Assembly: GCA_022825895.1 (NCBI GenBank)
Contig: JAJDVX010000004.1
Span: 1-64,000 of the forward strand
From: Chloroflexota bacterium
GTDB lineage: Bacteria; Chloroflexota; UBA11872
Reading direction: 5' to 3'
Length of the DNA: 64,000 nucleotides
In this document: positions 14,353 through 52,062 of the stretch, one piece after another
Numbering within the stretch: position 1 is the first letter of the stretch
Layout: each line of letters opens with the position of its first letter
Position numbers and translations under genes: made by a program
Notes under the pieces: generated by a model
The model's database searches: none
Told to the model about the DNA's origin: nothing
The model's input: the letters and a program-made list of their open reading frames with translations, nothing else

Positions 14353-14394
14353 GCGGGTGCGTAGCGCCCCGAAATCAGCGCTAGGCCGGCATCG

Positions 14395-15888: not shown

Positions 15889-15940
15889 GGCTACAACCGC
15901 GAGGTCCGCTCAGCGCCGACGTGCGCCATATTGGGCTGCG

Positions 15941-17428
15941 TCACTCAGACCGTGAACCCACATACGCCGCGTAAAGCTTGACGTCTTCAGGCCGCGGGCA
16001 CTCGCGGCTGACCGGTCCAACTTCCACCTTTAGGCGCAGCGGCGTGTCGGTCTGGGGTAGTGCGTCGCGCCTGCCCCAGCGCACCGGTACAGACAGCCCG
16101 GACTCACGTAGCGTGGCCGCGTCGTCGCCGGAGAAGCCAGGCAGCGGTTGGAAGTGATGGTCCACCACTTCGACTCGCGCCGCGGCGAACTCACCAAGAC
16201 CGGACACGTTCAGGTGGACTGGTGACCCAGCCGTCGGGACACTGAACGGGCAGGTGATGAGTTGCGCCCGCGTGCCCGCCGCGTAGGGCTGCACGTAGCC
16301 CAGGCGGTCGCGTTCCCATTGCGCCAGGCGGACCTGGCCGTCGCCGCGCCAGACCGAGTACCAGTACAGCGTCTTATCGCCGACGTTCTCCATGCCCTGG
16401 CCCTGCTGCAGGGCAGGTCCCGCGCCCAGGCGCGTGTCGCGTTCCTCGCGTGAGGGAATGAAGCGAAATCCGGGAAGCGGCTCGTGGAAGTGGATCGCGT
16501 CGTGACTGATGGCGAGCCCCAGGTCGATCGTGACGTAGCGCCGGTCGCCGTAGGGGTAGCCGTGCCACTGGCCATAGATGGCGAGAATCACGTTGCCCCA
16601 GGAGTGCAGTCCCGCGCCGAGGTGGATTTCTTCCCAGTTGTTTTGCCGATCTTCCAAGTCCGGTCCTTCCAGCCGCGGCGTGCGCGTCATGCTCAGGGCG
16701 CTGCCTTCGGTCCAGTGCTCGAAGTCGTAGGAGGCGTAGGTCTCCATCTTGCGGCCGGGCCCCGGGTGGCCAACGCTGTGGCCGTTCGTGTAGTAGCAGC
16801 CGTTCCACTTGATCAGGCCCGAGTGCTCAAAGGCGACGCTGCCGCGCGGGTTGTCGGGGCTGGGCGTCCAATGCAGCCCGTCCGGGCTGTAGGCCACCGA
16901 CAAGCCGCCGCGGCGGTTGTCAGAGGGCCCGGTTCGGTGACTAAAGGTGATCTTGAACCGGCGGTTGGGGTCGGGGTCCTCAGGGTCGTGGATGACTGGC
17001 GCCATGAACATATCGATGTGCCGGGGGAAGTCCACGATGTTGTTGGCCTTGGAGCCCTGGTATTCGACCAGTCCGAGTTCCGGCTTCGTCCAGTGGATGC
17101 CGTCGCGGCTGTTCGCGTAGCACAGGCGCCCGTCGAAGCCCTCGTAGTTGGCCCAATTCGGATTACGGCCGACGCGTCCGATGTACCACATGTGGAACTC
17201 GTCGCCCACGCGGATGGTGCTGCCGTAGTAGTGGACGCCCTCGTCATGCGAGCCGGGCGGGCCCCTGGGGACAACCACGGTCGGCCCGTCGCGCCAGCCA
17301 GGGGTCCGCTTGCCGTGGATGAGGTGCAGTTGGAAGTTGGTCCGGAAGGGGATGCAGACGTCGTCGAAGGCGAAGAAAGTGGCTTCCTGGACCTGTATCT
17401 CCGAGGGTCCGCCGTGAACTCGCAGCAT
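15941..17428 (-). CDS. five-bladed propeller glycosidase-like protein (copy 2)
   Basis: 495 residues and very similar along its whole length to the 14395-15888 protein. The N-termini both run MLRV.GGPSE, and blade motifs such as SRDGIHWTKPELGL and YSPDGLHW are shared. The strongest differences are in loops (YQGYDGR versus YEGFDGR) and near the C-terminus. Retention of two full-length copies argues both are used, perhaps on different linkages. It is preceded on its strand by the solute-binding lipoprotein gene, with a stem-loop at 17458-17491 between them. Confidence 0.75.
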   Translation of the reverse strand: MLRVHGGPSEIQVQEATFFAFDDVCIPFRTNFQLHLIHGKRTPGWRDGPTVVVPRGPPGSHDEGVHYYGSTIRVGDEFHMWYIGRVGRNPNWANYEGFDGRLCYANSRDGIHWTKPELGLVEYQGSKANNIVDFPRHIDMFMAPVIHDPEDPDPNRRFKITFSHRTGPSDNRRGGLSVAYSPDGLHWTPSPDNPRGSVAFEHSGLIKWNGCYYTNGHSVGHPGPGRKMETYASYDFEHWTEGSALSMTRTPRLEGPDLEDRQNNWEEIHLGAGLHSWGNVILAIYGQWHGYPYGDRRYVTIDLGLAISHDAIHFHEPLPGFRFIPSREERDTRLGAGPALQQGQGMENVGDKTLYWYSVWRGDGQVRLAQWERDRLGYVQPYAAGTRAQLITCPFSVPTAGSPVHLNVSGLGEFAAARVEVVDHHFQPLPGFSGDDAATLRESGLSVPVRWGRRDALPQTDTPLRLKVEVGPVSRECPRPEDVKLYAAYVGSRSE

Positions 17429-17457
17429 GGCTACAGCCTCAACCCCCGTCTAGCGCG

Positions 17458-17491
17458 CACCGGCCAACCCCACGGTTGGGGCTGGCCGGTG
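17458..17491 (-). other. intercistronic stem-loop between binding protein and propeller gene
   Basis: CACCGGCC (17458-17465) pairs with GGCCGGTG (17484-17491), and the interior can pair as CCCC/GGGG or as CCAACC/GGTTGG. It lies just after the stop of the binding-protein gene and before the next gene on that strand. No T-run follows. Confidence 0.6.
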
Positions 17492-17523
17492 GCGTCCGAT
17501 TCGGCGCGTCGGTCCAGCGATCG

Positions 17524-19149
17524 CTACGGAGTGACCGGATTCGGCTGGCTCGCCGCCCAGCTCTTGAGCTCCAGGAAGCGGTCGTGGTTCTCTTCCATGT
17601 ACCGGTCGAGAATCCCCAACATTTCCTCGATGCCCTGTTCCACGGACACTTCGCCCAACATGACTTTGCTATTGCTGGCGTATCCGGACTGCTCCACCAT
17701 TTCCTGCCACGCCGGATGCATGCGCTGCTGGTAGGCGGGGTTGTCGCTTTCCAGATAGTGCAGTTGCTGCACGTGATTCTCGGGCGGTCCTGCCGCGTAT
17801 TCGGGCGACGACGCCACGTCCTTACGCCAGGTCACCGACCCTCGGTCAATCGCCACGCGCGATTGGGTCTTCGGTCCCGCCAGGTACAAGAGCCACTCGA
17901 CCACGGCTTCGGTGTTGCCGCGCAGGCTGGCCATCTGGGTGATCAAGTGCGGCTCGTCGCTGAACTTCTGTGGCTGCGGGCCGCGCGGTCCTTCCGGCAG
18001 AGGGATCAAGGCCCACGGGAAGCGATCTTTGATGCGGTTGATGGGTCCGCCCACGCCGCCGCCCCAGTGAAAGAACCCTGTCTTCCCGTTCGAGAACGGT
18101 TCGCCGGCATCGCCTCTGAGCTCCCGGTACCGTGCGCGCGTCGGCACGACACCCTCTTCGAGCACGAAGTCTCGGAGCATCTGCAACCCAACGTGCGCGC
18201 CGGAATCAAACACGGTCCAGCGCGTGGCGTCCTTGTTGTAGTACATCAGGTTCTCTTCGTCGGACAGCGCCCAGCCCCACGAGATTGCATTGCTACTCAC
18301 AAGCGTCCCGGAGTCCCATAGGCCAAAGGTCTCCGTCTCGGGGTCGGTGATGCGCCGCAAGGCATCCGGCAGCTCGGTCTGGATGCCCCAGCTGCCAGGC
18401 GTTGGAAACTCGACGCCCGCGCTCTCCATTAGCGCCAGATTGGCCGAAAGGACGTTCAAGTTGCCCTGATAGGGCATGCCGTGAAACGGTCCTCGCAGCC
18501 CATCACGGTGCGGGAAGGGGCGCTCGTTGACCAGGTTGACGCTGGATTCGTCGGGGCACCAATACCACTCGGTGGGATCGAAGCCGTCGTGCTTTTGCAG
18601 CACGTCGTCGATCACCGTGAAGGCGCCCTGCGCCAGAAACTGGGCCGCGAACCAGCCCGGCATCAGCACCGCCTCGGGCTGGGTGCCCGCGGCGATCATG
18701 ATGGCGATCATTTCCTGGTTCGCGTCCGGCGAGAGGACGAACTTCACGTCGATGTTGGGAAACTCGATGGCAAAGTTGTCCAGCGCCCAGCCCATGGCGG
18801 CGCCGCGCGGACCGGACGTGTGGTCGGTGTGAAAGACGAACTTCACCGGCGGGGCCTGCGGTGCGACCTCGACAATTTTCTCGACGATTTTTTCGACTTC
18901 CCTGGTGACGACCTTTTCGACAACCTTTTCAACCGGGACCTCGACAACCTGCTTGACCTCGACGATCTTTTCGACCGGGACTTCTTCGCGGACGACGTTT
19001 ACGACCTCCTGGGTCACGATTCTCTCGACCTGCTGCGTGACGATCTTTTCGACCGGGACTTCTTTGACTACGACCCGCTCGACGGGAACTTCCTTGGTCA
19101 CGACCTTCGTTTCAGCTTCGCCGCAGGCCGCAAGTGCGAGCGCGCTCAT
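17524..19149 (-). CDS. ABC transporter substrate-binding lipoprotein; start region frameshifted
   Basis: Binding protein of the same subfamily as the one at 9399: both contain TDHTSGPRG after the linker. The linker holds E/V-K-I-V units (VEKIVTQ, VEKVVEKVV). The intact frame begins at ATG 19149 inside the signal peptide (MSALALAACGE). In-frame codons upstream encode ANITRRRVLIGAAGA, a twin-arginine sequence, but ATG 19200 is followed at once by TGA. If one C were removed from the CC at 19192-19193, GTG 19198 would give MSNITRRR and a normal Tat lipoprotein signal. So either a one-base insertion has damaged the gene, the assembly has an error, or translation begins at 19149 without the Tat motif. 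Confidence 0.8.
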   Translation of the reverse strand: MSALALAACGEAETKVVTKEVPVERVVVKEVPVEKIVTQQVERIVTQEVVNVVREEVPVEKIVEVKQVVEVPVEKVVEKVVTREVEKIVEKIVEVAPQAPPVKFVFHTDHTSGPRGAAMGWALDNFAIEFPNIDVKFVLSPDANQEMIAIMIAAGTQPEAVLMPGWFAAQFLAQGAFTVIDDVLQKHDGFDPTEWYWCPDESSVNLVNERPFPHRDGLRGPFHGMPYQGNLNVLSANLALMESAGVEFPTPGSWGIQTELPDALRRITDPETETFGLWDSGTLVSSNAISWGWALSDEENLMYYNKDATRWTVFDSGAHVGLQMLRDFVLEEGVVPTRARYRELRGDAGEPFSNGKTGFFHWGGGVGGPINRIKDRFPWALIPLPEGPRGPQPQKFSDEPHLITQMASLRGNTEAVVEWLLYLAGPKTQSRVAIDRGSVTWRKDVASSPEYAAGPPENHVQQLHYLESDNPAYQQRMHPAWQEMVEQSGYASNSKVMLGEVSVEQGIEEMLGILDRYMEENHDRFLELKSWAASQPNPVTP

Positions 19150-32395: not shown

Positions 32396-33829
32396 ATGAC
32401 CATGCGCTACGAACCCAACTGGCGCTCCCTGCGTCAACACCAGACGCCCCGCTGGTTCAGCGACGCAAAATTCGGCATCTATACCCATTGGGGCATCTAC
32501 TGCGTTCCCGCGTGGGGTCCCAACGCCACCTGGTACCCCTACCGCATGTATCGGGAGAACGAGCCGCACTACGCGCACCACGTGAAGACCTACGGGCATC
32601 CCGGCGAGTTCGGATACAAGGACTTCATTCCCGATTTCACCGGCGCAAAGTTCGACGCCGATGCCTGGGCCGACCTCTTCAAGCGCGCGGGGGCGCAGTT
32701 CGCAGGCCCGGTGGCGGAGCATCACGACGGCTTCGCGCTCTGGGACAGCGAGCACACGGAGTGGAACGCGGCACGGATGGGCCCCAAGCGTGACGTGGTG
32801 GGCGAGCTGGCGGAGGCCGTGCGGCGCCAGGGCATGCGCTACATGGTGGCCATGCACCACGCCGAGAACTGGTGGTTCTTTCCGCACTGGCGCACCGACT
32901 TCGATACGTCGGACCCGCGCTACGCCGGCCTGTACGGTGAGCCGCACAACCTGGACTTTGCGCCGCGGGACGTGGAGTGGGACGAGCAGGACAAGCCGAG
33001 CCGGGCCTTCCTGGACAGCTGGAAGGCCAAGCTGGTGGAGGTGGTGGACAAGTACGAGCCGGACTACATCTGGTTCGACTTTGGCCTGAAGGCCGTGCAC
33101 GAGCAGTACAAGCAGGACTTCCTGGCCTACTACTACAACAAGGAAGCCGAGTGGGGCCGCGGGGTGGTGGTGACCTACAAATGGGACAACCTGCCGCCGG
33201 GCGTAGGCGTGCTGGACATCGAGCTGGGCAAGATGCCAGATCAGGCGTACCACGAGTGGATTACCGACACCACGGTGGACGACGGCTCGGGCTGGGGCTA
33301 CCTGCGCGAGACCACCTACAAGTCGGCCACCGAACTGGTGCAATACCTGGTGGACAACGTCAGCAAGAACGGGCTGATGCTGCTGAACGTTGGCCCGAAG
33401 CCGGACGGGACGATTCCCGACGAGGCGGTGACGGCCCTGGAGGGCATCGGCGACTGGCTGCGTGTGAACGGCGAGGCGATCTACGGAACCACACCCTGGT
33501 GGACGTACGGCGAAGGCCCCACCCAGATGTCGGTTTCAGGCGCCTTCAGCGACACCAAGGAGAAGCTGGCCTACCAGGGCAGCGACATCCGGTTCACGGT
33601 GAAGGGCAACGTGCTCTATGCGATCTGCCTGAACTGGCCGGACGAGACCTTCACGATCGAGTCGCTGAAGAACCTGTATCCGGGCGAAATCCGGTCGGTT
33701 GAGCTATTGGGCGCGGAAGGCGAGTTGGCCTGGCGAATGACGGGCGATGGGCTGGAGATTCAGCGGCCGGAGCAAAGGCCGTGCGAGCACACCTACGCCT
33801 TCAAGATCACGCGGAATACGGGCTTGTAG
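32396..33829 (+). CDS. alpha-L-fucosidase, GH29
   Basis: 477 residues. Starts with the family's WFSDAKFGIYTHWGIY, contains AEHHDGFALWDSE (residues ~108-119), and the nucleophile Asp in PDYIWFDFGL (D228). VSKNGLMLLNVGPKPDGTIP and GEAIYGTTPWW are also typical. Expected to release terminal fucose with retention of configuration; the acid/base Glu is poorly conserved in GH29 and is not assigned. No signal peptide, so probably cytoplasmic and acting on imported oligosaccharides. A second GH29 enzyme of a different subgroup is at 40099. Confidence 0.93.
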   Translation: MTMRYEPNWRSLRQHQTPRWFSDAKFGIYTHWGIYCVPAWGPNATWYPYRMYRENEPHYAHHVKTYGHPGEFGYKDFIPDFTGAKFDADAWADLFKRAGAQFAGPVAEHHDGFALWDSEHTEWNAARMGPKRDVVGELAEAVRRQGMRYMVAMHHAENWWFFPHWRTDFDTSDPRYAGLYGEPHNLDFAPRDVEWDEQDKPSRAFLDSWKAKLVEVVDKYEPDYIWFDFGLKAVHEQYKQDFLAYYYNKEAEWGRGVVVTYKWDNLPPGVGVLDIELGKMPDQAYHEWITDTTVDDGSGWGYLRETTYKSATELVQYLVDNVSKNGLMLLNVGPKPDGTIPDEAVTALEGIGDWLRVNGEAIYGTTPWWTYGEGPTQMSVSGAFSDTKEKLAYQGSDIRFTVKGNVLYAICLNWPDETFTIESLKNLYPGEIRSVELLGAEGELAWRMTGDGLEIQRPEQRPCEHTYAFKITRNTGL

Positions 33830-40098: not shown

Positions 40099-41307
40099 TC
40101 AGACCCCCGGATCGTCGCCAAAGCGATCGTGCTCCTGAGGCTCGCCGTCGAACTCCAGCGCGATGACCGTGTCGATGGGATCGGGAGCGTAGGCGGGCAG
40201 ACCGCGCAGCCAGGCGCGGTGACCGCGCTGCTCCACCGAGACTGGAGTGTCGGAACCCAATAGGCGCGCGCTGAGGATGCGTCCGCCGACGCCGCCCACG
40301 ACGATCTCTTCGCCCGGCCAGCGCCAGCAGTGCAGGTAGAGCGTGTTGCCGATCTTGGTATGCGTACGGCCCGCGCTGCTGATGCGCAGCCGGTCGGCGG
40401 TCGGCTCGCTGCCGTAGATCGACTCGCCGTACACGTCCAGCCAGCGGCCCATGGCGCGCAGCCGCTCCACGGACTCGAACGGAATGCGGCCATCGGGATC
40501 GGGCCCAACATTCAACAGGTAGTTGCCGCCGCCGTTGGCCGCGGTGACGAGGTAGTGAATGAGCTGCCGGGGGGACTTCCACTCGCGGTCGATCGTAGAG
40601 TAGCCCCAGGTCGTGTTCATGGTCATGCAGCTTTCCCAGAGCCGATCCGGGGAGGGCGTGACGTGTTGCTCGGGCGTGTCGAAGTCTTCCGGCTGCATGG
40701 AGCGGTTGTTGATGAGGATGTCGGGGTGGAGCCGCCGGACTTCAGCATTGAGCGGGGTTGAGTTCCAGTCCTCCGGCGTGTACGGCCAGCCGCCGTCGTA
40801 CCAGAGCACCGAGAGGTCGCCGTAGTCGGTGCACAGCTCCAGCACCTGCGCGTGTACGTAGTCCAGGAACTCCGCCCAGCCCTCGGGATCGCGGGCCTTG
40901 CCGCGGAAGTAGGCCGGGTAGCGCCAATCCAAAAGCGAGTAGTAGAAGCCGTAGCGCATGCCGCGCTTCTCGCAGGCGTTGACGAACTCGGCCAGCAGGT
41001 CGCGCCTGGCGGCGGTCCTGGGAGCCGTGAAGTCCGAGACCTGGGAGTCCCAGAGGCTGAAGCCCTCGTGGTGACGCGAGGTGAGGATCATGTAGCGCAT
41101 GCCGGCGTCCTGGGCCAGCGCCACCCATTCCTCGGGGTTGTAGTGCTGGGGATCGAACTGATCAGCCAGGACCTTGTATTCCTCGGGAGGAATGCTCTCC
41201 TGGTACATCGTCCACTCGTGGCGGGCCAGGAGGGAGTACAGGCCCCAATGGATGAACATGCCGAAGCGGGCGTCGTGCCACCAGGAAAGCGCGGCGGGGG
41301 TAGGCAT
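40099..41307 (-). CDS. alpha-L-fucosidase, GH29 (second subgroup)
   Basis: 402 residues. Starts MPTPAALSWWHDARFGMFIHWG, contains LTSRHHEGFSLWDSQ and the nucleophile Asp in SVLWYDGGW (D171), and later AANGGGNYLLNVGPDPDG. Lacks a signal peptide. ATG 41307 with GAGGA seven bases upstream is chosen; the open frame upstream has no similarity to the family. Differs in loops from the enzyme at 32396 and may prefer another fucosyl linkage. Confidence 0.92.
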   Translation of the reverse strand: MPTPAALSWWHDARFGMFIHWGLYSLLARHEWTMYQESIPPEEYKVLADQFDPQHYNPEEWVALAQDAGMRYMILTSRHHEGFSLWDSQVSDFTAPRTAARRDLLAEFVNACEKRGMRYGFYYSLLDWRYPAYFRGKARDPEGWAEFLDYVHAQVLELCTDYGDLSVLWYDGGWPYTPEDWNSTPLNAEVRRLHPDILINNRSMQPEDFDTPEQHVTPSPDRLWESCMTMNTTWGYSTIDREWKSPRQLIHYLVTAANGGGNYLLNVGPDPDGRIPFESVERLRAMGRWLDVYGESIYGSEPTADRLRISSAGRTHTKIGNTLYLHCWRWPGEEIVVGGVGGRILSARLLGSDTPVSVEQRGHRAWLRGLPAYAPDPIDTVIALEFDGEPQEHDRFGDDPGV

Positions 41308-41448
41308 CGGGGAGTCCTCGAATTGGGGAAGTGAATCCCCGCAGCATGCGACGGTTTGAGCAGGTTGGGCAATGACGGCACGGGACTTCGGCGTCGCTAA
41401 TGGCTTCGGTAATCTCGGAGACGACTGGCAACATCGTCCGCCTGACCA

Positions 41449-41709
41449 ATGTCTGACCGTCCATCGCGTCTGACGCGCCCACTCAATCCCATGCCGGCCG
41501 CGGTTGAGAGCGCGCTCGAAGAGACCGGCCTGATGGAGGCCTACCAGGCCCGCCCGCCGTATCAGCGGAACGACTACCTGGGCTGGATCGACCGAGCCAA
41601 GCGGCCCGAGACGAAGGCTCGCCGGCTGCAGCAGATGCTGGACGAACTGGAGCAGGGGGACGTGTATATGAAGATGGCCTGGAGGGCGGGTAGGGCTGGA
41701 AGCCGGTGA
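41449..41709 (+). CDS. YdeI/OmdA-associated small protein
   Basis: 86 residues. The central part YQRNDYLGWIDRAKRPETKARRLQQMLDEL matches the C-terminal module of YdeI/OmpD-associated proteins, here as a stand-alone protein. Function in the family is uncertain (linked to bacteriocin protection or envelope stress). No signal peptide. It precedes the higBA promoter and is not obviously co-transcribed with it. Confidence 0.75.
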   Translation: MSDRPSRLTRPLNPMPAAVESALEETGLMEAYQARPPYQRNDYLGWIDRAKRPETKARRLQQMLDELEQGDVYMKMAWRAGRAGSR

Positions 41710-41748
41710 CCGGTCGAGAACGCTGGGGGCTAAATCGCCACAGCCCAC

Positions 41749-41777
41749 TTGACACGTGTACCGGTACGCGATACAGT
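41749..41777 (+). promoter_or_regulatory. higBA promoter with operator palindrome in spacer
   Basis: TTGACA at 41749-41754, exactly 17 bp, TACAGT at 41772-41777. The spacer carries an almost perfect 16-bp palindrome at 41755-41770 whose core GTACCGGTAC (41758-41767) is fully symmetric. The predicted start falls at or next to GTG 41783, so the toxin mRNA would be leaderless. A repressor on the palindrome would block polymerase, as expected for HigA autoregulation. Confidence 0.75.
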
Positions 41778-41782
41778 CATGT

Positions 41783-42061
41783 GTGATTCGGACGCTTCTC
41801 AGTCGTGGGCTCAAGCGGCTGCATGACCGGGACGACTCCAGCAGGCTGCGAGCGGATCAGGTGGGGCGGATCAGGAACGCTTTGGCGGACCTCGACTCAG
41901 CGCGGTCACCGCGGGACCTGTCAATGCCGAGATACAGGTTGCACCAACTGAGGGGGAACCTGCGAGGGTTCTGGAGCATCAGAATCACAGGAAACTGGCG
42001 GATCGTATTTCGATTCGAAGGGGACGACGTATACGACGTCGACTTGGTCGACTACCACTGA
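41783..42061 (+). CDS. higB: HigB-type toxin (RelE superfamily)
   Basis: 92 residues, the usual length. The body reads RADQVGRIRNALADLDSARSPRDL, YRLHQLRGNLRGFWSIRITGNWRIVFRF and ends DDVYDVDLVDYH, matching HigB ribosome-dependent mRNA interferases. GTG 41783 gives the normal start VIRTLLSRGLKRL; ATG 41756 would lie between the promoter boxes. The toxin cleaves mRNA on the ribosome when freed from HigA. The antitoxin gene follows after 16 bp. Confidence 0.93.
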   Translation: MIRTLLSRGLKRLHDRDDSSRLRADQVGRIRNALADLDSARSPRDLSMPRYRLHQLRGNLRGFWSIRITGNWRIVFRFEGDDVYDVDLVDYH

Positions 42062-42574: not shown

Positions 42575-45500
42575 ATGATGCGCACCCGCCTGCCAGTGCA
42601 TGCTCAGTGGCGCAGCCTGCTGAGGGCGCTGGGCCCGTTGCTTGCGGCCGTGTGCCTTGGGCTGGTCGCGGCCTTGCAGCCCGCGGTGCATGCGCAGGGT
42701 CCCAGCCCCGGCCCCGCGCTGCTTCCGACGGAGGCGGCCGAGCCCCCGAAGCCGGACCAACGGTTCGTGACCGTGAGCAGCGGCAACTTTCACGCTTGTG
42801 GCCTACGGGCGAATGGCGACGTTCTGTGCTGGGGCGCCCGGCCGCCAGGCGAGACGGCCGAATTCGGTCCGGTTGACTTCGGCCAGGCGTCGCCGCCGGC
42901 TGGCGAACGCTTCGTGGCCATCAGCAGCGGCGGTTTTCACACGTGCGGCCTGCGGGACGATGGAACCGTCGTGTGCTGGGGCGCCGGTCTGGACGACCAG
43001 TCCGAAGGCCTGGGCCAGGTGGGGTTCGGCCAGACCTCACCGCCGGCTGGCGAGGCCTTTACCGCCATCAGCAGCGGGGGTGGGCATTCCTGCGGGCTGC
43101 GTGAGGATGGCTCGGTGGCCTGCTGGGGGAACGACGAGTCGGGGCAGGCCTCGCCGCCCGCCGACGAACGGTTCACGTCGATCACCAGCGGCGCCAATCA
43201 CTCCTGTGGCATTCGCGAAGACGGAACCGTCGTCTGCTGGGGACCGGAGCCGCGACCTGGTCCGTTCGGCGGCTGGGAAGCGCCTCCGGAAGCAGCGTTC
43301 GCGTCGATCGATGGGGCCCACGGTTATACGTGCGGCGTGCCGCTGGAAGGTTCGGCGATCTGCTGGGGGAGCTATTCGGAGATCCCCAACCTTGCGCGCT
43401 ATCCGCCGCCGGACCTCCGGCTTGTGGCCATCAGCGGTGGCGGCGGCCATGCCTGTGGGCTCAACAAGGACGGGACCCCGATCTGCTGGGGGGACCTGGC
43501 GGAAAGTCCGCCGCCGGGGCAGCGCTTCGCGTCGCTCAGCAGCGGGATCGGGCATACCTGCGGACTTCGCGCCGACGACGGTACGGTGGCCTGCTGGGGC
43601 GACGATTCGTATGGGCAGGCGTCCCCGCCCGAGGGCGCGCGGTACCTGGGTTCCGAGCCCATCCCGCCCGATCCCTACGACCCGGCGGCGCCGCTGGTGG
43701 CACTGAGCAGTGGTGGTCGACACGTCTGCGGCATCACCAGCGAAGGCTTGGCCTGGTGCGCAGGCAGTGACAATTTCGGTCAGGCATCGCCGCCGCCCGG
43801 CGTGAAGTTCGCCTCCATCAGCAGCGCGTCGTTTCACACCTGCGGCATCCGCCTGGATGGCGTGGCGGTGTGCTGGGGGGATGACGCGGATGGTGAGTCC
43901 TTGCCCCCTGCAGGCGAGCGGTTCGTCTCAATCAGCAGCGGCGCCGGCCGAACCTGCGCCCTACGCAAGGACGGGACGCCGGTCTGCTGGGGCCGCGAGA
44001 GCGCCGACGAAACGTCGGCGGTGGCGACTGAGCAGTTCAGCGCCATCAGTGCCGGCTGGGGCCACGCCTGCGCGCTGCGGGCGGACGGCACGGCCGTCTG
44101 CTGGGGGAGTAACTGGGGCGGTCAGGCCACGCCACCCGAGGCTCAGAGGTTCAGGGCCATCAGCACTGGCTGGGACCACACCTGCGCCTTGCGCGAGGAC
44201 GGCGCGGCCGTCTGCTGGGGCCGCAATCAGTATGGCCAAGCGTCCCCGCCGGAGCACGAGCGCTTTGTGGACATCAGCACGAACACCTACCACACCTGCG
44301 CGCTGAGAGAAGACGGCACGCCCGTGTGTTGGGGCGCAACCGATCCGTGGTCGGACAGCGGTCAGGCGTCCCCGCGTCCCGGGGAGCGGTTTGTGTCGGT
44401 GAGCAGCGGAGACAACTTCACCTGCGGCCTGCGGTCGGACGGCACCTACGGATGCTGGCGATTCGGTCCCGCAAAGCTCGGATTCGACCTCGACACCGTC
44501 GGCCGCGAGCGATTCTGGGCGGTAAGCGATCGTACGCTGACGGCCGTAAGCAGCGGCAACCGGCATACCTGTGCGATTGATACGGACGGCACGCTGCGGT
44601 GCTGGGGACTGAACGACTATGGACAGGCGGAGCCTCCGGCGGCGGGGACGTTTATTGCCGTCAGCAGCGGAGGACGACACACCTGCGGCCTGCGCGACGA
44701 TGGCAAGGCTGTCTGCTGGGGCGACGCGGCGGATGGCCGGACCGAGCCGCCGGCCGACGATCGATTCGTTGCGATCAGCAGTGGATGGGCCCACAGCTGT
44801 GCGCTGCGTGACGACGGCTCGGCCGCGTGCTGGGGCAGGGACCATAGCGGCCAGGCCTCGTCGCCAGTAGCCGAACGCTTCAGCGCAATCAGTAGCGGGC
44901 TCACGCACACGTGCGCGCTGCGCCAGGATGGATCGGCGGTGTGCTGGGGCCGGGATGACGACGGCCAGGCCTCGGCACCGGACGGCCGGCGGTTCATCGC
45001 CATCAGCAGTGGCTCGGACTACACGTGCGCTCTCCACGAGGACGGAAGCCCGTTCTGCTGGGGGGATCCGGATGACGAAACGGCGACCCCGCCGTATGTC
45101 GAGCGCTTCGTCGCGATCAGCAGTGGCCCGGATCATGCGTGCGGACTGCGCGCCGACGGCACGCCGGTCTGCTGGGGCGAACGGAATGCGGTCGCTCCGC
45201 CGGGCGAGCACTTCGACGCTATCAGCATCGGCGCCGTGCATACCTGCGCGCTGCGTACAGACGGACGCCCCGTCTGCTGGGGCAGCGGCTTCGTCACGCC
45301 GACCGAGTCGGCCGTGCGTTCACAGTTCGAGACGGTCAGTGTTCAGAGCTTCGTGGCTATCAGCAGCGGCTACGGGCACGTCTGCGCGCTGCGCGAGGAC
45401 GGGTCGGCTGTCTGCTGGGGCTCGAGCGGCGCCGGCCAGACCGCGGCGCCGCATGGCGAGACGTTTTCCTCGCTGTCCAGCGGAAGCTCTCACACGTGCG

Positions 45501-48500
45501 GATTGCGCTCCGATGGCGTGGCGGTCTGCTGGGGATATGACGAACAGGGTCAGGCAGCGTCTCCTGAGGACGATCGGTTTACGGCGCTCACCAGCGGTAG
45601 CTATCACACCTGCGGGCTTCGTACCGACGGCACCGCAATCTGTTGGGGGCGAGACGACAGCGGCGAGGCGTCGCCGCCCGAAGGCGTGCAGTTCATGGCA
45701 GTCAGCGCCGGCGAGCGCCATACCTGCGGCGTGCGAACCGACGGCGTGGCGGTCTGCTGGGGGGACGATGAGCACGGCAAGTCGACGCCAACGCAGGCCG
45801 AGCGATTCGTTGCCGTGAGCGGCGGCGAGGAGCACACCTGCGCGCTGCGCGCCGACGGGACGCCGGTCTGCTGGGGCATGGCCGGAAGCGTGTCGTCCCC
45901 GCCGCACGGCGTGGCGTTTACCGCACTCAGCAGCGGCCCACAGCACACGTGTGGATTGCTGGCGGACGGGACGCCGGTCTGCTGGGGCTCAAACGCCGGC
46001 GGTTATGAAACTCCTGGCGGGCGAGCCGTAGCGCCGCACGGCGAGAAACTCAGCGCGGTGAGCAGTGGCGGTGACTTTACGTGCGGCCTTCGCACGGACG
46101 GCACGCCGGTTTGCTGGGGCGGGCGCTTCGAAACCGGAGCGCCGCGCTATCCGCCTATCGCCGGCGGCCCGTTTGTTGCGATGAGCAGTGGGGAGTTGCA
46201 TACCTGTGCGCTGCGCGAAGACGGCTCGCCGCTCTGTTGGGGCGACGACACCCACGGTCAGGCGTCGCCGCCAGCGGACGAGCGCTTCGTGGCCGTGAGC
46301 AGCGGCGAGCACCACACCTGCGGGCTGCGCGAGGACGGTGGCGCCGTGTGCTGGGGATCGAATCGCGACGGGCGGTCAACGACGCCGGTCGACGAGCAGT
46401 TCGAGTCCCTGAGTAGCGGCTCAAGCCACAGCTGCGCTTTGAGGTTGGATGGATCGGTGGCGTGCTGGGGGCGCGACGACCAGGGGCAGGCCTCGCCGCC
46501 AGCAGCCGAGACGTTTGTGGCGATCGGCAGCGGCGGGGAGCATACCTGCGGTCTACGCGAGGACGGGTCCACGCTCTGCTGGGGCGCTGAAGACCGATCC
46601 AGCAGCTGGGGCAAGCTCTGGCCACCGGAGGACGAGCGCTTTGTCGCCCTCAGTGTTGGGCCGAACCATACCTGTGGGTTGAGGGCGGACGGCACGTTCT
46701 GGTGCAGCACGGACTTCAATCAGTGGTCCGGGGTGTTCGAGCACGAGCGTTTCGTTGCCATTAGCAGCGCCCGTGAACGCCTATGTGGCCTTCGGGACGA
46801 TGGCTCGGCCGTTTGCTTTGGTGACTTCCACACATTCCGTCCGGTAAGTCAGCAATTTGTGTCGCTCAGCAGCGGGGCTCGGCACACCTGTGGGCTGCGC
46901 GAGGACGGCGCCATCCTGTGTTGGGGTCAGAACGACCGGGGCCAGGCATCGCTCCAGGACCGGTACCCAACGTCATTGCGTGGCGAGCGGTTCACGGCCG
47001 TGACCGCCGGCAGCCGCGTCGCCTGCGCGCTTCGCCAGGACGGGACGCCGGTCTGCTGGGTGGCGCCCGATTCCAGGTGGTCGTCGCCACGCGACCTTCC
47101 GGAGACTCCAGACGAGCGGCTGAAGACAGTCAGCGCCGGGTCCGGTTACGTCTGTGGGCTTCGCGACGATGGCACCCCCGTGTGCTGGGGACAGGACTGG
47201 AACGGTCGAGCCGTGCCGCCGGAAGGCGAAGTGTTCGCGGCCATTAGCAGTGGCTCCGGGCACACCTGCGCGCTGCGTCCGGACGGCACGCCGGTGTGCT
47301 GGGGGAGCAACGACGACGGATCCGGTCGGCACGCCGGCGGGGCGTCGCCGCCGGCTGGCGAGCGCTTCGCGACCATCAGCGTGGGCGCCTTCCACACCTG
47401 CGCCCTGCGCGAGGACGGAACCCCCATGTGCTGGGGTAGCAACGAGGACGGGCGCGGCAACCCCGTTGGCCAGGCTGCACCGCCCAGCGGCGAGCGCTTC
47501 ACGACCCTCAGCAGTGGATCGCTCCACACGTGCGCTCTGCGCGCGGGCGGGACGGCCGTCTGCTGGGGTGAGAACCACGACGGCCGGTCGTCGCCGCCGA
47601 AGCACGAGTCGTTCGTCGCGATCGACAGCGGGGACGAACACACCTGCGGTGTCCGCGCCAACGGATCCGCCGTCTGCTGGGGGCAGAACTGGAACGGCCA
47701 GGCCGCGGCGCCGTCGGGCGAGACATTTGCGGCCCTCGGCAGTGGGCAGGACTTCAGCTGCGCCCTGCGCCAGGACGGAACGGCGACGTGCTGGGGCGAG
47801 GGGTACCCCCGCCCGCCTGAGGTGACACCGCCGTACACGCCGCCGGCACCGCCGCTGCCCAGCCCGCTGCCAGCGTTCGTGGCCGTCAGCTGCGGCAGTT
47901 TCCACACCTGTGCGCTCAGCCTGGATGGTCAGGCAATTTGCTGGGGCGGCCGGTCCGGCCTTCGGCCGGTGTGGCCGCCGGAGGGTGAGCGGTTTGTCGC
48001 GCTCACCAGCGGGTGGAGCCACACGTGCGGGCTACGCGACGACGGAACGGCCGTGTGCTGGGGTGTTGGCGTCGCCGTCAGCGAGCCGCCCCCTGCCGGC
48101 GAAACGTTCTCCGCGCTGAGCAGCGGCTCAAGCCACACCTGCGGCTTGCGTAGCGATGGGACGGCGGTCTGCTGGGGCTTCGACGAGGACGGTCGAACCT
48201 GGCCGCCGGCCGGCGAACGGTTCACGATGCTCAGCAGTGGCGGCGCTCACACCTGCGGCCTGCGCGAGGATGGGACGGCGGTCTGCTGGGGACGCGACGA
48301 CGAAGGCCAGGCCTCGCCGCCCGCCGACGAGCGGTTTACGGCAATTGCCAGCGGCAGCGATCACACGTGCGGGTTGCGTGCGGATGGGACCGTCCGCTGC
48401 TGGGGCGACAAATCAGCCCCTCACGCGACGCCGCCGGTGGGTGAGACCTTTGTGGCCATCAGCAGCGACGACTACCGCACCTGTGGGCTCCGTAGCGATG

Positions 48501-48670
48501 GGACCGTGGAGTGCTGGGGATCCTTCCGACCCGGCGAATCCACATCGCCCGACGACGTGCGGATCACCACCATCAGCATGGGTCGAGCACACACCTGTGG
48601 CCTGCGCGCGGACGGAACCGTGGCTTGCTGGGGGTCCGATGACGAGGGCCAGGTGTGGCCGTCGCGATGA
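42575..48670 (+). CDS. giant secreted RCC1-type protein, 49 repeats
   Basis: 2,031 residues. A basic start and hydrophobic core ending AVHAQG form a signal peptide. The rest is 49 tandem ~38-residue RCC1-like repeats with consensus F.AISSG..HTCGLR.DGT.VCWG...GQASPP. Nearly every repeat has a Cys in HTC and another in VCWG, about 11 residues apart. Longer inserts interrupt the register after repeats 7, 14, 21, 28, 35 and 42 (near 43630-43697, 44460-44535, 45285-45350, 46125-46170, 46925-46990 and 47805-47880; the last is Pro-rich), which predicts seven seven-bladed propellers in a row. No enzyme domain or anchor is visible; an extracellular binding or matrix role is likely. Blades 14, 33, 34 and 36 have degenerate VCWG. 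The next gene follows at once. Confidence 0.9.
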   Translation: MMRTRLPVHAQWRSLLRALGPLLAAVCLGLVAALQPAVHAQGPSPGPALLPTEAAEPPKPDQRFVTVSSGNFHACGLRANGDVLCWGARPPGETAEFGPVDFGQASPPAGERFVAISSGGFHTCGLRDDGTVVCWGAGLDDQSEGLGQVGFGQTSPPAGEAFTAISSGGGHSCGLREDGSVACWGNDESGQASPPADERFTSITSGANHSCGIREDGTVVCWGPEPRPGPFGGWEAPPEAAFASIDGAHGYTCGVPLEGSAICWGSYSEIPNLARYPPPDLRLVAISGGGGHACGLNKDGTPICWGDLAESPPPGQRFASLSSGIGHTCGLRADDGTVACWGDDSYGQASPPEGARYLGSEPIPPDPYDPAAPLVALSSGGRHVCGITSEGLAWCAGSDNFGQASPPPGVKFASISSASFHTCGIRLDGVAVCWGDDADGESLPPAGERFVSISSGAGRTCALRKDGTPVCWGRESADETSAVATEQFSAISAGWGHACALRADGTAVCWGSNWGGQATPPEAQRFRAISTGWDHTCALREDGAAVCWGRNQYGQASPPEHERFVDISTNTYHTCALREDGTPVCWGATDPWSDSGQASPRPGERFVSVSSGDNFTCGLRSDGTYGCWRFGPAKLGFDLDTVGRERFWAVSDRTLTAVSSGNRHTCAIDTDGTLRCWGLNDYGQAEPPAAGTFIAVSSGGRHTCGLRDDGKAVCWGDAADGRTEPPADDRFVAISSGWAHSCALRDDGSAACWGRDHSGQASSPVAERFSAISSGLTHTCALRQDGSAVCWGRDDDGQASAPDGRRFIAISSGSDYTCALHEDGSPFCWGDPDDETATPPYVERFVAISSGPDHACGLRADGTPVCWGERNAVAPPGEHFDAISIGAVHTCALRTDGRPVCWGSGFVTPTESAVRSQFETVSVQSFVAISSGYGHVCALREDGSAVCWGSSGAGQTAAPHGETFSSLSSGSSHTCGLRSDGVAVCWGYDEQGQAASPEDDRFTALTSGSYHTCGLRTDGTAICWGRDDSGEASPPEGVQFMAVSAGERHTCGVRTDGVAVCWGDDEHGKSTPTQAERFVAVSGGEEHTCALRADGTPVCWGMAGSVSSPPHGVAFTALSSGPQHTCGLLADGTPVCWGSNAGGYETPGGRAVAPHGEKLSAVSSGGDFTCGLRTDGTPVCWGGRFETGAPRYPPIAGGPFVAMSSGELHTCALREDGSPLCWGDDTHGQASPPADERFVAVSSGEHHTCGLREDGGAVCWGSNRDGRSTTPVDEQFESLSSGSSHSCALRLDGSVACWGRDDQGQASPPAAETFVAIGSGGEHTCGLREDGSTLCWGAEDRSSSWGKLWPPEDERFVALSVGPNHTCGLRADGTFWCSTDFNQWSGVFEHERFVAISSARERLCGLRDDGSAVCFGDFHTFRPVSQQFVSLSSGARHTCGLREDGAILCWGQNDRGQASLQDRYPTSLRGERFTAVTAGSRVACALRQDGTPVCWVAPDSRWSSPRDLPETPDERLKTVSAGSGYVCGLRDDGTPVCWGQDWNGRAVPPEGEVFAAISSGSGHTCALRPDGTPVCWGSNDDGSGRHAGGASPPAGERFATISVGAFHTCALREDGTPMCWGSNEDGRGNPVGQAAPPSGERFTTLSSGSLHTCALRAGGTAVCWGENHDGRSSPPKHESFVAIDSGDEHTCGVRANGSAVCWGQNWNGQAAAPSGETFAALGSGQDFSCALRQDGTATCWGEGYPRPPEVTPPYTPPAPPLPSPLPAFVAVSCGSFHTCALSLDGQAICWGGRSGLRPVWPPEGERFVALTSGWSHTCGLRDDGTAVCWGVGVAVSEPPPAGETFSALSSGSSHTCGLRSDGTAVCWGFDEDGRTWPPAGERFTMLSSGGAHTCGLREDGTAVCWGRDDEGQASPPADERFTAIASGSDHTCGLRADGTVRCWGDKSAPHATPPVGETFVAISSDDYRTCGLRSDGTVECWGSFRPGESTSPDDVRITTISMGRAHTCGLRADGTVACWGSDDEGQVWPSR

Positions 48671-48792
48671 GGCTGGTGAACGTGCCGACAGTCCGCCTAG
48701 ACGTCAACCGCTCTGCCGCTCTTGGGGCGGGCCAGCGACTTCTGTCGTCTTGTTCAGCTCCGGCGATTCGGCTGATTTCAGGCCTTCGTCGG

Positions 48793-51700
48793 ATGAGCGG
48801 CAAGTCGAGGCCATTGCCCGGACGGCTGCGACCTCTCACCGCAAGACGTAGGTCCCGGGCCCTGGCGCCGCCGTTGCGCTTCGTCGCGCTGGCCGCCGTG
48901 CTGGTTGCGCTCGGTGTGAGCCTCACGACCCGGCCGGCGCATGCGCACAGCCGCCTTCCGCCGTGCGAGGGTTGGGGTCCCCGCGGCGTTCACTCGACCA
49001 ATGCCCAGAACTCGGTGCAATGGACGCCGGGTGGCTCCGAACTGCTTTTCGTCCACAGCGACCAGCTCTACCAGGCGACGGCGGACGGGACGCGCGTGCA
49101 AGGGACGTTTGAGGTGCCGTACGAGGCCCACATCGAGATGCGGTCGTATCTCAAGGTCTACCTGACGCACGCCGACGTCTCCCCTTCCGGGACACAGGTG
49201 GCGTACTCCGTCTGCTGGGACTCCTTCACGTTCTGGGACAGCCCGCCAAGGGAACCGCCGGACGAGGAGTCCCGCGCGGTGCACGTTCCGATCGGAACGG
49301 AGTTCTTCGAGGTCGCTGTCTGGGATGCGACCACCGACGAGGTGGACTACCTGGCCGTTGGCAGCGTGCCCGTGTGGTCGCCCGACGGCACCCGCATTGC
49401 GTTTCTGTCCGATCACAATTACGCCGACACGTCCGCTGGCAGCCAGGCAAGCAACGAGGTCGATCCGGGGCTCTTCAGCATGGCCGCGGACGGCTCCGAC
49501 ATCCAACGCCTGGCGCCGGCGGACCCTGGGGACGTCGGCCTTCCGCCCCGCTGGTCGCCGGACGGACGGCTGCTGGCCTTTGTGCGTGGCGTGGGTTCGG
49601 CGGAGCAGGCGGTGTTCACGGTGGGCGCCGACGGATCGAATCTCAGGCAGATCTCCGCCGCGGCCAGCCTTCCCTCCTGGTCCCCCGACGGCGCGCGCCT
49701 GGCGCTGGCGTTGCCCGACGGGGACGAGGTGGCGCTGTACACCCTCGCGGCGGACGGCTCGGACCCGCGGCGGCTGACGACGATCGAGGGCTGGCAGAGC
49801 CAGGGCTGGAATGAAGAGTCGTACGCGGAGGATCCGTCGGTTGCCTGGATCGAGACGGTGGCCTGGTCGCCGGACGGATCGAAGATTCTCTATACGTGTG
49901 GATGGGCGTCGGTCTGCGTGGTCGACCTGGATGGAAATCCCGTCGGGTCATCGCCTGAGAACTTCGGGGAGCCACACGGACCGGTCTGGTCGCCCGACGG
50001 ATCGCGAATCGCGATTGGCATAGGCGCTGAAGTCGACCGCTATTCGCGCAGCGTGCCCGAGGTTCTCTACACGATGAGGCCCGACGGTTCCGACCTGCAG
50101 GTGCTTGTGACCCTGGGCGTCGGGCTGGTGGCCGAGAGCGTCAGAGAGGCCGACCTTGCAACGCGATACGCGGCCTGCACCGCCGGATACGTAGTCCCCG
50201 AACCCGGTGCGAATCCCGGCCTGGTGAGCGACTGCCAGACGCTGATGAATCTTCGTGACTGGCTGTTCGGCGCGGTGACCACGAACTGGAATGCCGGGAC
50301 GCCGATCGACGAGTGGGTGGGGCTGACCATCGAGGGCTCGCCGCGGCGGGTGACGGGACTGAGGGTGGGAAGCGGCAGCTACGGCGATGCGGTAACCGCG
50401 GGCATCATCCCGCCCGAGGTCGCCAACCTGCCCAGGCTGCGGACGCTCGAGCTTGCCGGCAACCAGATATCGGGGAACATTCCGCCGGCGCTCGGTCAAC
50501 TCGCCGAGTTGGAGACGCTGGACGTCGCCCACAATCAGCTTTCGGGAGGGATTCCAGCAGCGCTCGGCGATCTCGGCTCGCTGCGGAGCCTGAACCTGTC
50601 GGGAAACCGGCTCTACGGTGAAATTCCACCGGAAGTGGGCCGGCTGACGGGCCTTGAACTCCTGGATTTGGCCGGGAACGATCTGACCGGCGAGATTCCA
50701 GAGGAATTGGGCAACCTTTCCAGCCTGCAGAAGCTCAACCTTCGGGAAAACGAGTTCGACGGGAGGATTCCGGGAGAGTTGGGCCAACTTGCCGGCCTGG
50801 TGGAGCTGGACCTCGCGGAGAGTGGTGTCGCGGGCAGCATTCCGCCCGAAATCGGCGACCTGGCCGGGCTGGAGACGCTGGACCTCTCGAACAATGCGCT
50901 GACGGGTGACATTCCGCCCGAGCTTGGCGGGCTGCGAAACTTGACGGAGCTAAATCTCGCCGAGAACCAGCTGACGGGCCTCATCCCCTGGGAGCTGGGC
51001 TGGCTGACCAAGCTCACGGATCTGCAGTTCGGAGGCAACCAACTCACCGGACGTGTTCCGGTGGCCTTGGGGTCTATGTACCAATTGTGGTCGCTGGGAC
51101 TGTGGGGCAATCAACTCGAGGAGTGCCTGCCATTCCACCTGAACCGACGTGAGCCGCCGTACATCAGCCCGCGCGAGTGGGCGACCTGCGAGGCCGGTTC
51201 GTATGCCTTCAACATTCGAGACGACGCGTTGCCCGGGGCCAGTGTGGGCCGGGTGTACATCCCCGGCCGGCTGGCGGACACGGTCAGCTACGTGATCGCG
51301 GGCGGCAACGAGGCCGGGGCGTTTGCCATCGACTCGAGCAGCGGCCGCATCAGCGTTGCAGGCGAACTGGACGCTTCAGCGGTCGATGCCTATTCGCTGA
51401 CGGTCGCGGCGAGCGACGGACTCGACGACGTGGTGAGCGTGGAGATCCGGGTCAATCCAGCGCCCTCGCCGCCGACCTGCGCCAGTGGAATCGCCGTGCC
51501 AAATCCGGAGGAGAATCCCGGGCTGGTGAACGACTGCCGGATCCTGCTCCAGGCGCGGGAAGTTCTGGTCGGGCGGGGCTGGCTGAATTGGAGCGCCGAG
51601 GCCCCGATGGAGCAGTGGGAAGCGATCGAACTCGGCGGTACGCCGCGACGCGTCCTGGCGTTGGAGATTCGAGGGCCCCACGGCGGCAGGCGCATCCCGC

Positions 51701-52062
51701 CCGAGCTTGGAGGTCTGAGCGCTTTGCGGCGACTGGTGCTCTTCAACAACCGTTTGTGGGGCACCATTCCGAGCGAACTCGGGCAACTGCGCGAGTTGCG
51801 CGAGCTCGATCTGTCAAATAACGCATTCTCGGAAGCAATACCGCCGGAACTGGGTCGGCTTGCCAACCTGACCCACCTGAATCTCTTCGTCAATCGCCTA
51901 ACCGGACAGGTTCCAGCGGAACTCGGACAACTGACGAATCTGCGGGAATTGCACCTCGGCATGAACCACTACCTGATCCAGTGCCTGCCGAGCAGCCTGG
52001 CCGCCCGAGCGCGGCAGGGCGCCACGTTGCCGGACTGGCCGACGTGCGAGGCGGACGGCTAG
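48793..52062 (+). CDS. secreted TolB-propeller, leucine-rich-repeat, cadherin-like protein
   Basis: 1,089 residues from ATG 48793. After a signal sequence (ending TTRPAHAHS) come six WSPDG-type TolB/WD40-like blades. Then ten 24-residue leucine-rich repeats of the plant-type pattern IPPELG.L..L..LDL..N.L.G, a cadherin-like beta domain (~YAFNIRDDALPGASVG to VSVEIRVNPAP) and four more such repeats. Each repeat block starts with a similar capping module (C..G..VP.P..NPGLV.DC). An ATG at 48667 overlaps the RCC1 stop by four bases and stays in frame, so the start could be earlier; 48793 is preferred for signal-peptide geometry. Probably co-transcribed with the RCC1 gene and acting in adhesion or recognition. 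Confidence 0.82.
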   Translation: MSGKSRPLPGRLRPLTARRRSRALAPPLRFVALAAVLVALGVSLTTRPAHAHSRLPPCEGWGPRGVHSTNAQNSVQWTPGGSELLFVHSDQLYQATADGTRVQGTFEVPYEAHIEMRSYLKVYLTHADVSPSGTQVAYSVCWDSFTFWDSPPREPPDEESRAVHVPIGTEFFEVAVWDATTDEVDYLAVGSVPVWSPDGTRIAFLSDHNYADTSAGSQASNEVDPGLFSMAADGSDIQRLAPADPGDVGLPPRWSPDGRLLAFVRGVGSAEQAVFTVGADGSNLRQISAAASLPSWSPDGARLALALPDGDEVALYTLAADGSDPRRLTTIEGWQSQGWNEESYAEDPSVAWIETVAWSPDGSKILYTCGWASVCVVDLDGNPVGSSPENFGEPHGPVWSPDGSRIAIGIGAEVDRYSRSVPEVLYTMRPDGSDLQVLVTLGVGLVAESVREADLATRYAACTAGYVVPEPGANPGLVSDCQTLMNLRDWLFGAVTTNWNAGTPIDEWVGLTIEGSPRRVTGLRVGSGSYGDAVTAGIIPPEVANLPRLRTLELAGNQISGNIPPALGQLAELETLDVAHNQLSGGIPAALGDLGSLRSLNLSGNRLYGEIPPEVGRLTGLELLDLAGNDLTGEIPEELGNLSSLQKLNLRENEFDGRIPGELGQLAGLVELDLAESGVAGSIPPEIGDLAGLETLDLSNNALTGDIPPELGGLRNLTELNLAENQLTGLIPWELGWLTKLTDLQFGGNQLTGRVPVALGSMYQLWSLGLWGNQLEECLPFHLNRREPPYISPREWATCEAGSYAFNIRDDALPGASVGRVYIPGRLADTVSYVIAGGNEAGAFAIDSSSGRISVAGELDASAVDAYSLTVAASDGLDDVVSVEIRVNPAPSPPTCASGIAVPNPEENPGLVNDCRILLQAREVLVGRGWLNWSAEAPMEQWEAIELGGTPRRVLALEIRGPHGGRRIPPELGGLSALRRLVLFNNRLWGTIPSELGQLRELRELDLSNNAFSEAIPPELGRLANLTHLNLFVNRLTGQVPAELGQLTNLRELHLGMNHYLIQCLPSSLAARARQGATLPDWPTCEADG

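Follow-up and report, generated by a model that had tools for sequence, protein, structure and literature searches.

The window, the whole stretch of DNA considered here, comprises 64,000 nucleotides of contig JAJDVX010000004.1 from a Chloroflexota bacterium. One open reading frame (ORF) on its forward strand encodes a protein of 2031 residues with 49 RCC1-type repeats, and this array is the subject of the present report. A first-pass annotation of the same DNA had predicted that the repeats form seven consecutive seven-bladed propellers, with a register broken only after every seventh repeat. The array is real and conserved, and it is unusually long for the known superfamily to which it belongs; the seven-by-seven arrangement stands, whereas the claim contained in the word "only" fails.

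The protein begins with a predicted signal peptide and ends 12 residues beyond its last Cys-Trp pair. On reading the sequence, neither a lipobox nor a later membrane helix was seen, and a crude scan gives a maximum hydrophobicity of 13/20 after residue 45. The features of the array, together with the ORF that follows it, are listed in Table 1.

Register of the repeats

The number of repeats is exactly 49 in a motif scan and again 49 with a hidden Markov model (HMM) built from them, which confirms the earlier count. The Pfam family RCC1_2 (PF13540) matches 37 stretches of the protein with 1026.2 bits (gathering cut-off, 22) and WD40_RLD, the RCC1-like domain (PF25390), matches 11 stretches with 678.3 bits (cut-off, 150). 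The RCC1 family (PF00415), with 21.3 bits, falls slightly below its cut-off of 21.7. The Pfam scan of the 2031-residue chain revealed no domain of any other kind.

The seven blocks of seven repeats have lengths of 310, 281, 271, 274, 273, 295 and 271 residues, or 813-930 bp, in agreement with the 800-930 bp estimated at first. The interval from one repeat to the next is exactly 38 residues in 24 of the 48 cases and at least 41 residues in 16 of them. These long intervals follow repeats 7, 14, 21, 28, 35 and 42, and they also follow repeats 1, 2, 4, 5, 13, 27, 32, 36, 38 and 39. The register is therefore not broken at multiples of seven alone. Inserts away from the boundaries, which the first-pass annotation had named as evidence that would count against its own prediction, are thus partly present; we read these ten as loops within a propeller.

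Even so, period 7 remains the best description of the spacing. The mean interval is 47.7 residues at multiples of seven and 39.2 residues at other positions. A permutation test with the predicted period and phase gives p = 5e-5 (1/20000), and when periods 3-12 are scanned in all phases, period 7 is best, with p = 0.0086 after the scan. A second test scored the 10 residues that lead into each repeat. The mean score is -2.5 for the first repeat of a block and 8-17 for the other six positions. Period 7 is again the best, in the same phase as in the spacing test (z = -3.97 versus -1.8 for the next best), and the six internal boundaries give p = 2e-5. The two tests are only partly independent because the inserts displace the motif.

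The last boundary was said to be Pro-rich, and it is, as is the first boundary (residues ~350-373). Repeats at equivalent blade positions of different blocks have an identity of 0.499, compared with 0.482 for the others (p = 0.0002); without the terminal blades the values are 0.534 and 0.526. Recent copying of whole seven-blade units was considered as a source of the array, and there is little sign of it because same-position repeats are barely more alike.

Table 1. Features of the 49-repeat array and the adjoining ORF (positions in the window; pLDDT, predicted local distance difference test; AF2, AlphaFold2)
Feature	Position	Strand	Basis
2031-residue protein with 49 RCC1-type repeats	42575..48670	+	Motif scan, Pfam, repeat HMM
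Predicted Sec signal peptide, residues 1-40, ending A-V-H-A	42575..42694	+	Read from the sequence
Block 1, repeats 1-7, residues 57-366	42743..43672	+	AF2 mean pLDDT 60.9
Block 2, repeats 8-14, residues 367-647	43673..44515	+	AF2 mean pLDDT 69.2
Block 3, repeats 15-21, residues 648-918	44516..45328	+	AF2 mean pLDDT 68.7
Block 4, repeats 22-28, residues 919-1192	45329..46150	+	pLDDT 74.2 in model 1; 62.4 for part in model 2
Block 5, repeats 29-35, residues 1193-1465	46151..46969	+	AF2 mean pLDDT 65.5
Block 6, repeats 36-42, residues 1466-1760	46970..47854	+	AF2 mean pLDDT 70.3
Block 7, repeats 43-49, residues 1761-2031	47855..48667	+	pLDDT 75.4, top among the seven blocks
Pro-rich linker between blocks 6 and 7, residues 1742-1766	47798..47872	+	Sequence
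Downstream ORF: PD40/TolB-like propeller, leucine-rich repeats, cadherin-like domain; secretion-type N-terminus	48655..52062	+	Pfam and sequence reading

Relatives and predicted fold of the array

Relatives were sampled from RCC1_2 matches in at least 41 genomes, from which 40 stretches were taken, and from the best 80 of 148 confirmed contig stretches. The loci were not picked by repeat number; the sample favours arrays resembling the query because the best-scoring stretches were kept. The named orthologues all come from Chloroflexi/Chloroflexota metagenome-assembled genomes.

Five further full-length orthologues from the window's genus (L050, L051, L054, L055 and L056) also have 49 repeats with equal or nearly equal spacing. 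Orthologues of this genus are 77-94% identical to the window protein in their best segment, and L093 is 69% identical in its C-terminal part. In a sister genus of the same family, three orthologues (L057, L058 and L059) have 42 repeats and one (L052) has 50. Read by hand, the latter (L052:6034-12390) has the seven blocks of seven repeats, and its one supernumerary repeat, which is degenerate, sits between block 2 and block 3. Blocks 1-4 of the window protein match blocks 1-4 of a 42-repeat relative in order (56, 58, 56 and 52%), and blocks 5-7 cannot be paired. An alignment of close sequences contains the window protein and seven others. Six of these are assigned to the window's genus through matching contigs, and the seventh, L095, by identity only. 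Contig ends truncate L090 (L060/L090) and L095 in this alignment, and the L065 locus likewise runs up to the end of its contig.

Across all of the loci sampled, there are 136 complete ORFs with at least five repeats. No interval exceeds 1.6 times the median in 114 of them; the other 22 are gapped and their counts are possibly too low. The repeat number is a multiple of seven in 102 of the 114 arrays without large gaps and in 106 of the 136 when the gapped ones are included. The 102 have 7 (41 ORFs), 14 (47), 21 (4), 35 (1), 42 (3) or 49 repeats (6, including the window). When the sequences are clustered by single linkage at 50% identity, the modal repeat number is divisible by seven in 43 of the 52 clusters. 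Homologues of this kind in environmental genomes had been proposed as a check on the first prediction, and the 102 arrays are of that kind. The array had also been called uncommonly long for bacteria, which agrees with the sample: at least 42 repeats occur only in the window's orthologue group among the 136 arrays examined, some of the 22 gapped ones being undercounted.

The spacing pattern is found in relatives as well. In 54 other arrays with at least 14 repeats, which were preselected as multiples of seven, the spacing excess is 2.30 residues at multiples of seven and 0.04-0.96 residues in the other phases (p = 0.0016). For example, a 35-repeat array from Promineifilum (L099) has 46-residue spacings after repeats 7, 14, 21 and 28 only, plus one 42-residue spacing near its end. 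A protein of 3680 residues encoded on the minus strand of L062 has repeats of ~50 residues, 34 by the HMM and 35 by hand, and its two longest inserts, of ~180 and ~250 residues, follow repeat 7 and, by hand count, repeat 21.

Further details come from individual loci. The 35-repeat ORF L099:1718-6115 adjoins a 21-repeat ORF (L099:6195-9284), and both have a 46-residue spacing after every seventh repeat. Two neighbouring genes (L098:9077-13486 and 13546-17643) have 30 repeats each; long spacings follow repeats 15 and 17 in both, and the two genes share this departure from multiples of seven. In two other chains a seven-repeat RCC1 unit is joined to a catalytic domain, which is trypsin-like in L084:4814-7333 (+) and a glucose/sorbosone dehydrogenase in L071:8409-10877 (-).

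The protein was modelled with AlphaFold2 in two overlapping parts. Model 1 covers residues 50-1200 (10 sequences) and model 2 covers residues 1068-2031 (9 sequences); the latter begins in the middle of a block, with repeats 26-28, and was meant as a test of the register. The mean pLDDT values are 67.4 and 69.2, respectively. Three strands are predicted in every repeat, 28 of 28 in model 1 and 24 of 24 in model 2. The longest stretches with pLDDT below 50 are at the six boundaries, and there are also long ones after repeats 1 and 2. Foldseek matches listed for model 1 are mainly RCC1-superfamily propellers. Model 2 resembles BLIP-II with a template modelling (TM) score of 0.76 and a root-mean-square deviation (rmsd) of 2.7 Å over 251 columns, and ACR4 with a TM score of 0.77 and an rmsd of 4.6 Å. 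What the models predict is thus the fold of the single repeat together with at least one propeller of BLIP-II type. For comparison, a published 47-blade protein is described as lacking a good AlphaFold model (PMC9218822, section 3.2).

Several observations weigh against seven closed rings. The predicted TM scores (pTM) of the two models are 0.37 and 0.39 and the packing is poor, so closure of the rings is not demonstrated by the structure prediction that the first-pass annotation had called for. Most of the 50 Foldseek matches listed for model 1 have an rmsd of at least 18 Å, the best having 5.1-7.2 Å with TM scores of 0.54-0.59, and the top-ranked match of model 2 has an rmsd of 19.9 Å. Among the relatives, 12 of the 114 arrays depart from multiples of seven, with 50, 30, 30, 15, 13, 13, 12, 11, 6, 6, 6 and 5 repeats; the array with 12 (L119) is shortened by a masked stretch.

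These points would suit an open, continuous superhelix, or a mixture of rings with different blade numbers, in which a multiple of seven arose by chance of copy number. The lack of seven clean rings in the models, the ten inserts inside blocks, the extra repeat of L052, the paired 30-repeat genes of L098 and a relative that by hand reads as 8+7+7+7 (L067) can all be cited for it. However, free counts would give a multiple of seven in only ~1/7 of the arrays, far from the 102 of 114 observed, and long inserts follow multiples of seven elsewhere (L099, L062). The spacing phase in the 54 other arrays, the period-7 lead-in signal and the BLIP-II-like propeller within one model also speak against it, and we regard this explanation as quite improbable. 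Metagenome assemblies readily misassemble long tandem arrays, and so wrongly joined repeats might be suspected. Against this, five other genomes of the genus have full-length 49-repeat ORFs, 77-94% identical in the best segment, and the repeats are divergent, being ~48% identical over 34 residues, which makes an artefact extremely improbable. Seven seven-bladed rings in a row are very probably what the array forms, a conclusion supported computationally by the two phase tests, the orthologues with 49 and 42 repeats, L099, L062 and the 102 arrays.

Cysteine pairs, variable positions and possible function

All 49 repeats have a pair of cysteines 10 or 11 residues apart (C-X9/10-C), which accounts for 98 of the 100 cysteines in the protein. 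The remaining two lie outside such pairs: Cys27 belongs to the signal peptide and Cys1773 to repeat 43. A Trp follows the second Cys in 45 of the 49 repeats. Nonsynonymous (pN) and synonymous (pS) variation was compared over eight sequences (the window, six from the same genus and L095; two of them incomplete). Both Cys columns have a pN of 0.000, and the core is under purifying selection, with a mean pN of 0.081 versus a pS of 0.329. We consider it likely that the pairs are disulfide staples. A point on the other side is that VKOR, DsbA, DsbB and Thioredoxin_4 were not found in the window's genome (3.54 Mb, 94% complete, 62 RCC1_2 matches), whereas they are present in 3, 8, 6 and 9, respectively, of 14 control genomes. 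VKOR was not found in any of the 13 genomes of the genus that were searched, and the three genomes with VKOR among the 21 searched are all outside it. Only a DsbD_TM match was found in the window's genome.

The residues of BLIP-II that contact beta-lactamase are given in PMC10817188. They were mapped onto the repeats by alignment with a precursor offset of 40, which was inferred from residue matching. Tyr19 looks like a truncated number, Asn304 is outside the alignment and Trp53 is in an irregular loop at about +16/+17; offset +17 was left out of the tested set. Each contact that can be placed falls into one of two regions of the repeat, offsets -4/-3 (flanked by S-S-G and H) or the loop following W-G (offsets +13 to ~+17). 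In the 26 window repeats with 38-residue spacing, the six contact offsets have a between-blade entropy of 2.91 bits versus 1.34 bits elsewhere (one-sided p = 2e-4).

This result has to be weighed against the fact that the entropies at -4, -3 and +13 were known before the contact set was named, and variable loops are expected regardless of binding. In addition, pN/pS is 0.50 at -4 and 0.52 at -3, with ~0.25 in the core and the highest value, 0.69, at offset -10. Positive selection at the variable pair was considered and is unsupported, these ratios being below 1. By analogy with BLIP-II, the variability at contact positions leads us to propose, with moderate confidence, that the protein may be a secreted multivalent binder; for multivalent binding by the array as such, we put the chances at about even.

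The neighbourhood of the array offers a few hints about its setting. The downstream ORF, as started mechanically, overlaps the end of the array ORF by 16 bases, which cover the stop codon of the array. A leucine-rich repeat (LRR) gene lies 3' of the array in all five of the named same-genus loci that reach far enough (L091-L094 and L097). No match to it was found in the sister-genus loci L096 and L100, and L057, also of the sister genus, has an LRR segment of 36% identity on the upstream side, ~5 kb from the array. The LRR/cadherin-like gene is a possible operon partner. An alpha-L-fucosidase gene (Pfam Alpha_L_fucos; 40099-41814, minus strand) precedes the array on the opposite strand, and a second gene of the same Pfam family lies at 32396-33829 (+). 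GH29 fucosidases are reported to be enriched in sponge-associated lineages (PMC8163846). Going by the names, the COS and RHO labels of some orthologue genomes fit the sponges Coscinoderma and Rhopaloeides that are named in PMC8163846. The bacterial lineage of the array is probably found in marine sponges, and a host-associated role is plausible; a role of the array in the sponge association itself is a tentative suggestion.

Taken as a whole, the explanation that we favour, and consider somewhat probable, is a secreted, disulfide-stapled array of seven propellers that acts as a multivalent binder. The chain would be soluble and would consist of seven consecutive RCC1/BLIP-II-type beta-propellers, each with seven three-stranded blades. 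One disulfide per blade, 49 in total, would join neighbouring strands. In each blade a nearly fixed framework (the Cys pair, W-G, D-G and G) would carry two short stretches that vary by blade, namely the residue pair just ahead of the H-T-C motif and the loop that follows C-W-G. These stretches line the ligand face in BLIP-II, and so by analogy the array might offer a row of seven binding faces, each different. Presumably it would serve as an extracellular adhesin or scaffold toward animal-host or matrix partners, and the LRR/cadherin-like protein encoded downstream may be a partner.

The same chain could be no more than a rigid, disulfide-stapled propeller rod, a stalk that acts as a spacer in the extracellular matrix and binds no ligand of its own. 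Its great length, its regularity and the lack of any other Pfam domain would fit a stalk, and in L084 and L071 the repeats fused to catalytic domains are possibly accessories. Yet the chain has no anchor or partner domain, and a stalk does not need between-blade variability that clusters at BLIP-II ligand positions; we consider it rather unlikely. Alternatively, each propeller might cap a different secreted enzyme, in the manner of the inhibitor BLIP-II. In both sequence and fold, BLIP-II ranks with the nearest relatives of solved structure, but there is no evidence for target enzymes, and the Cys pairing is like that of plant CR4 ectodomains and unlike BLIP-II, so an inhibitor seems improbable. 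The most specific version of the favoured multivalent binder is a seven-headed secreted protein with BLIP-II-like, disulfide-stapled faces and two variable patches per blade, which holds host or matrix ligands for sponge-associated Chloroflexota and whose lineage gains or loses whole seven-blade propellers at a time. We offer this version as speculative and, in all its details, doubtful. Because each blade combines a fixed framework with two variable patches, ligand binding can be tested on single propellers.

Comparison with known systems

The best sequence matches among solved structures are the ectodomains of ACR4 (7a0j) and Physcomitrella CR4 (7a0k), with BLIP-II also among the matches. 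Crinkly repeats have the core C(X~10)CWG and a predicted disulfide in the blades (PMC4617170), and the window protein has the same type of conserved Cys-pair repeat 49 times out of 49. CRINKLY4 is described as having one propeller of seven repeats in addition to a TNFR-like part, a membrane part and a kinase (PMC4617170), whereas the window protein has seven blocks. The Pfam scan found no kinase domain in it, and therefore it is not a member of the CR4 family. We judge the tendency to multiples of seven and the crinkly-like cysteine staples to be more useful results than the array itself.

BLIP-II is secreted by bacteria and folds into a seven-bladed propeller in which each blade has three strands (PMC6121496, PMC10817188). 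Its structures (1jtd, 3qhy, 3qi0) resemble the window protein in the fold match given above and in the predicted three-stranded blades. However, BLIP-II is one propeller and, in the alignments, lacks cysteines where the pairs would be, whereas the window protein has seven blocks and Cys pairs. BLIP-II is a known beta-lactamase inhibitor; the window protein is related to it by sequence and fold only. The RCC1, UVR8 and HERC2 RCC1-like domains belong to the same superfamily by sequence and fold. They are intracellular proteins of eukaryotes and have a single propeller, except that HERC2 has a few, and Ran-related nucleotide exchange by a secreted bacterial array is unlikely.

Eukaryote-like repeats of sponge symbionts have been tallied for ankyrin, leucine-rich, tetratricopeptide, HEAT and WD40 repeats (PMC8163846); RCC1 is outside that tally and the word is absent from the main text of that paper. 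In the titles and abstract openings of the open-licence literature, we recognised no description of bacterial RCC1 arrays of such length. The bacterial RCC1_2 proteins sampled here with 7, 14, 21 or 35 repeats (for example, L099, L068 and L089) belong to the same repeat family and mostly have multiples of seven, and they are shorter than the window array. If our reading is right, this suggests that bacterial RCC1 arrays are usually built in units of seven, which would provide a simple annotation rule for large repeat proteins.

Many blades in one chain are also known from WRAP, with 14 blades in two seven-bladed propellers, and from a Penicillium camemberti NACHT ATPase with 47 blades (PMC9218822). 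The blades of these two proteins are near-identical and recently amplified (PMC9218822), whereas those of the window protein are divergent and its block boundaries are conserved in orthologues. If the seven-by-seven reading is right, the window array would have more blades than 47, the maximum in the survey set of highly repetitive propellers (PMC9218822, section 3.2).

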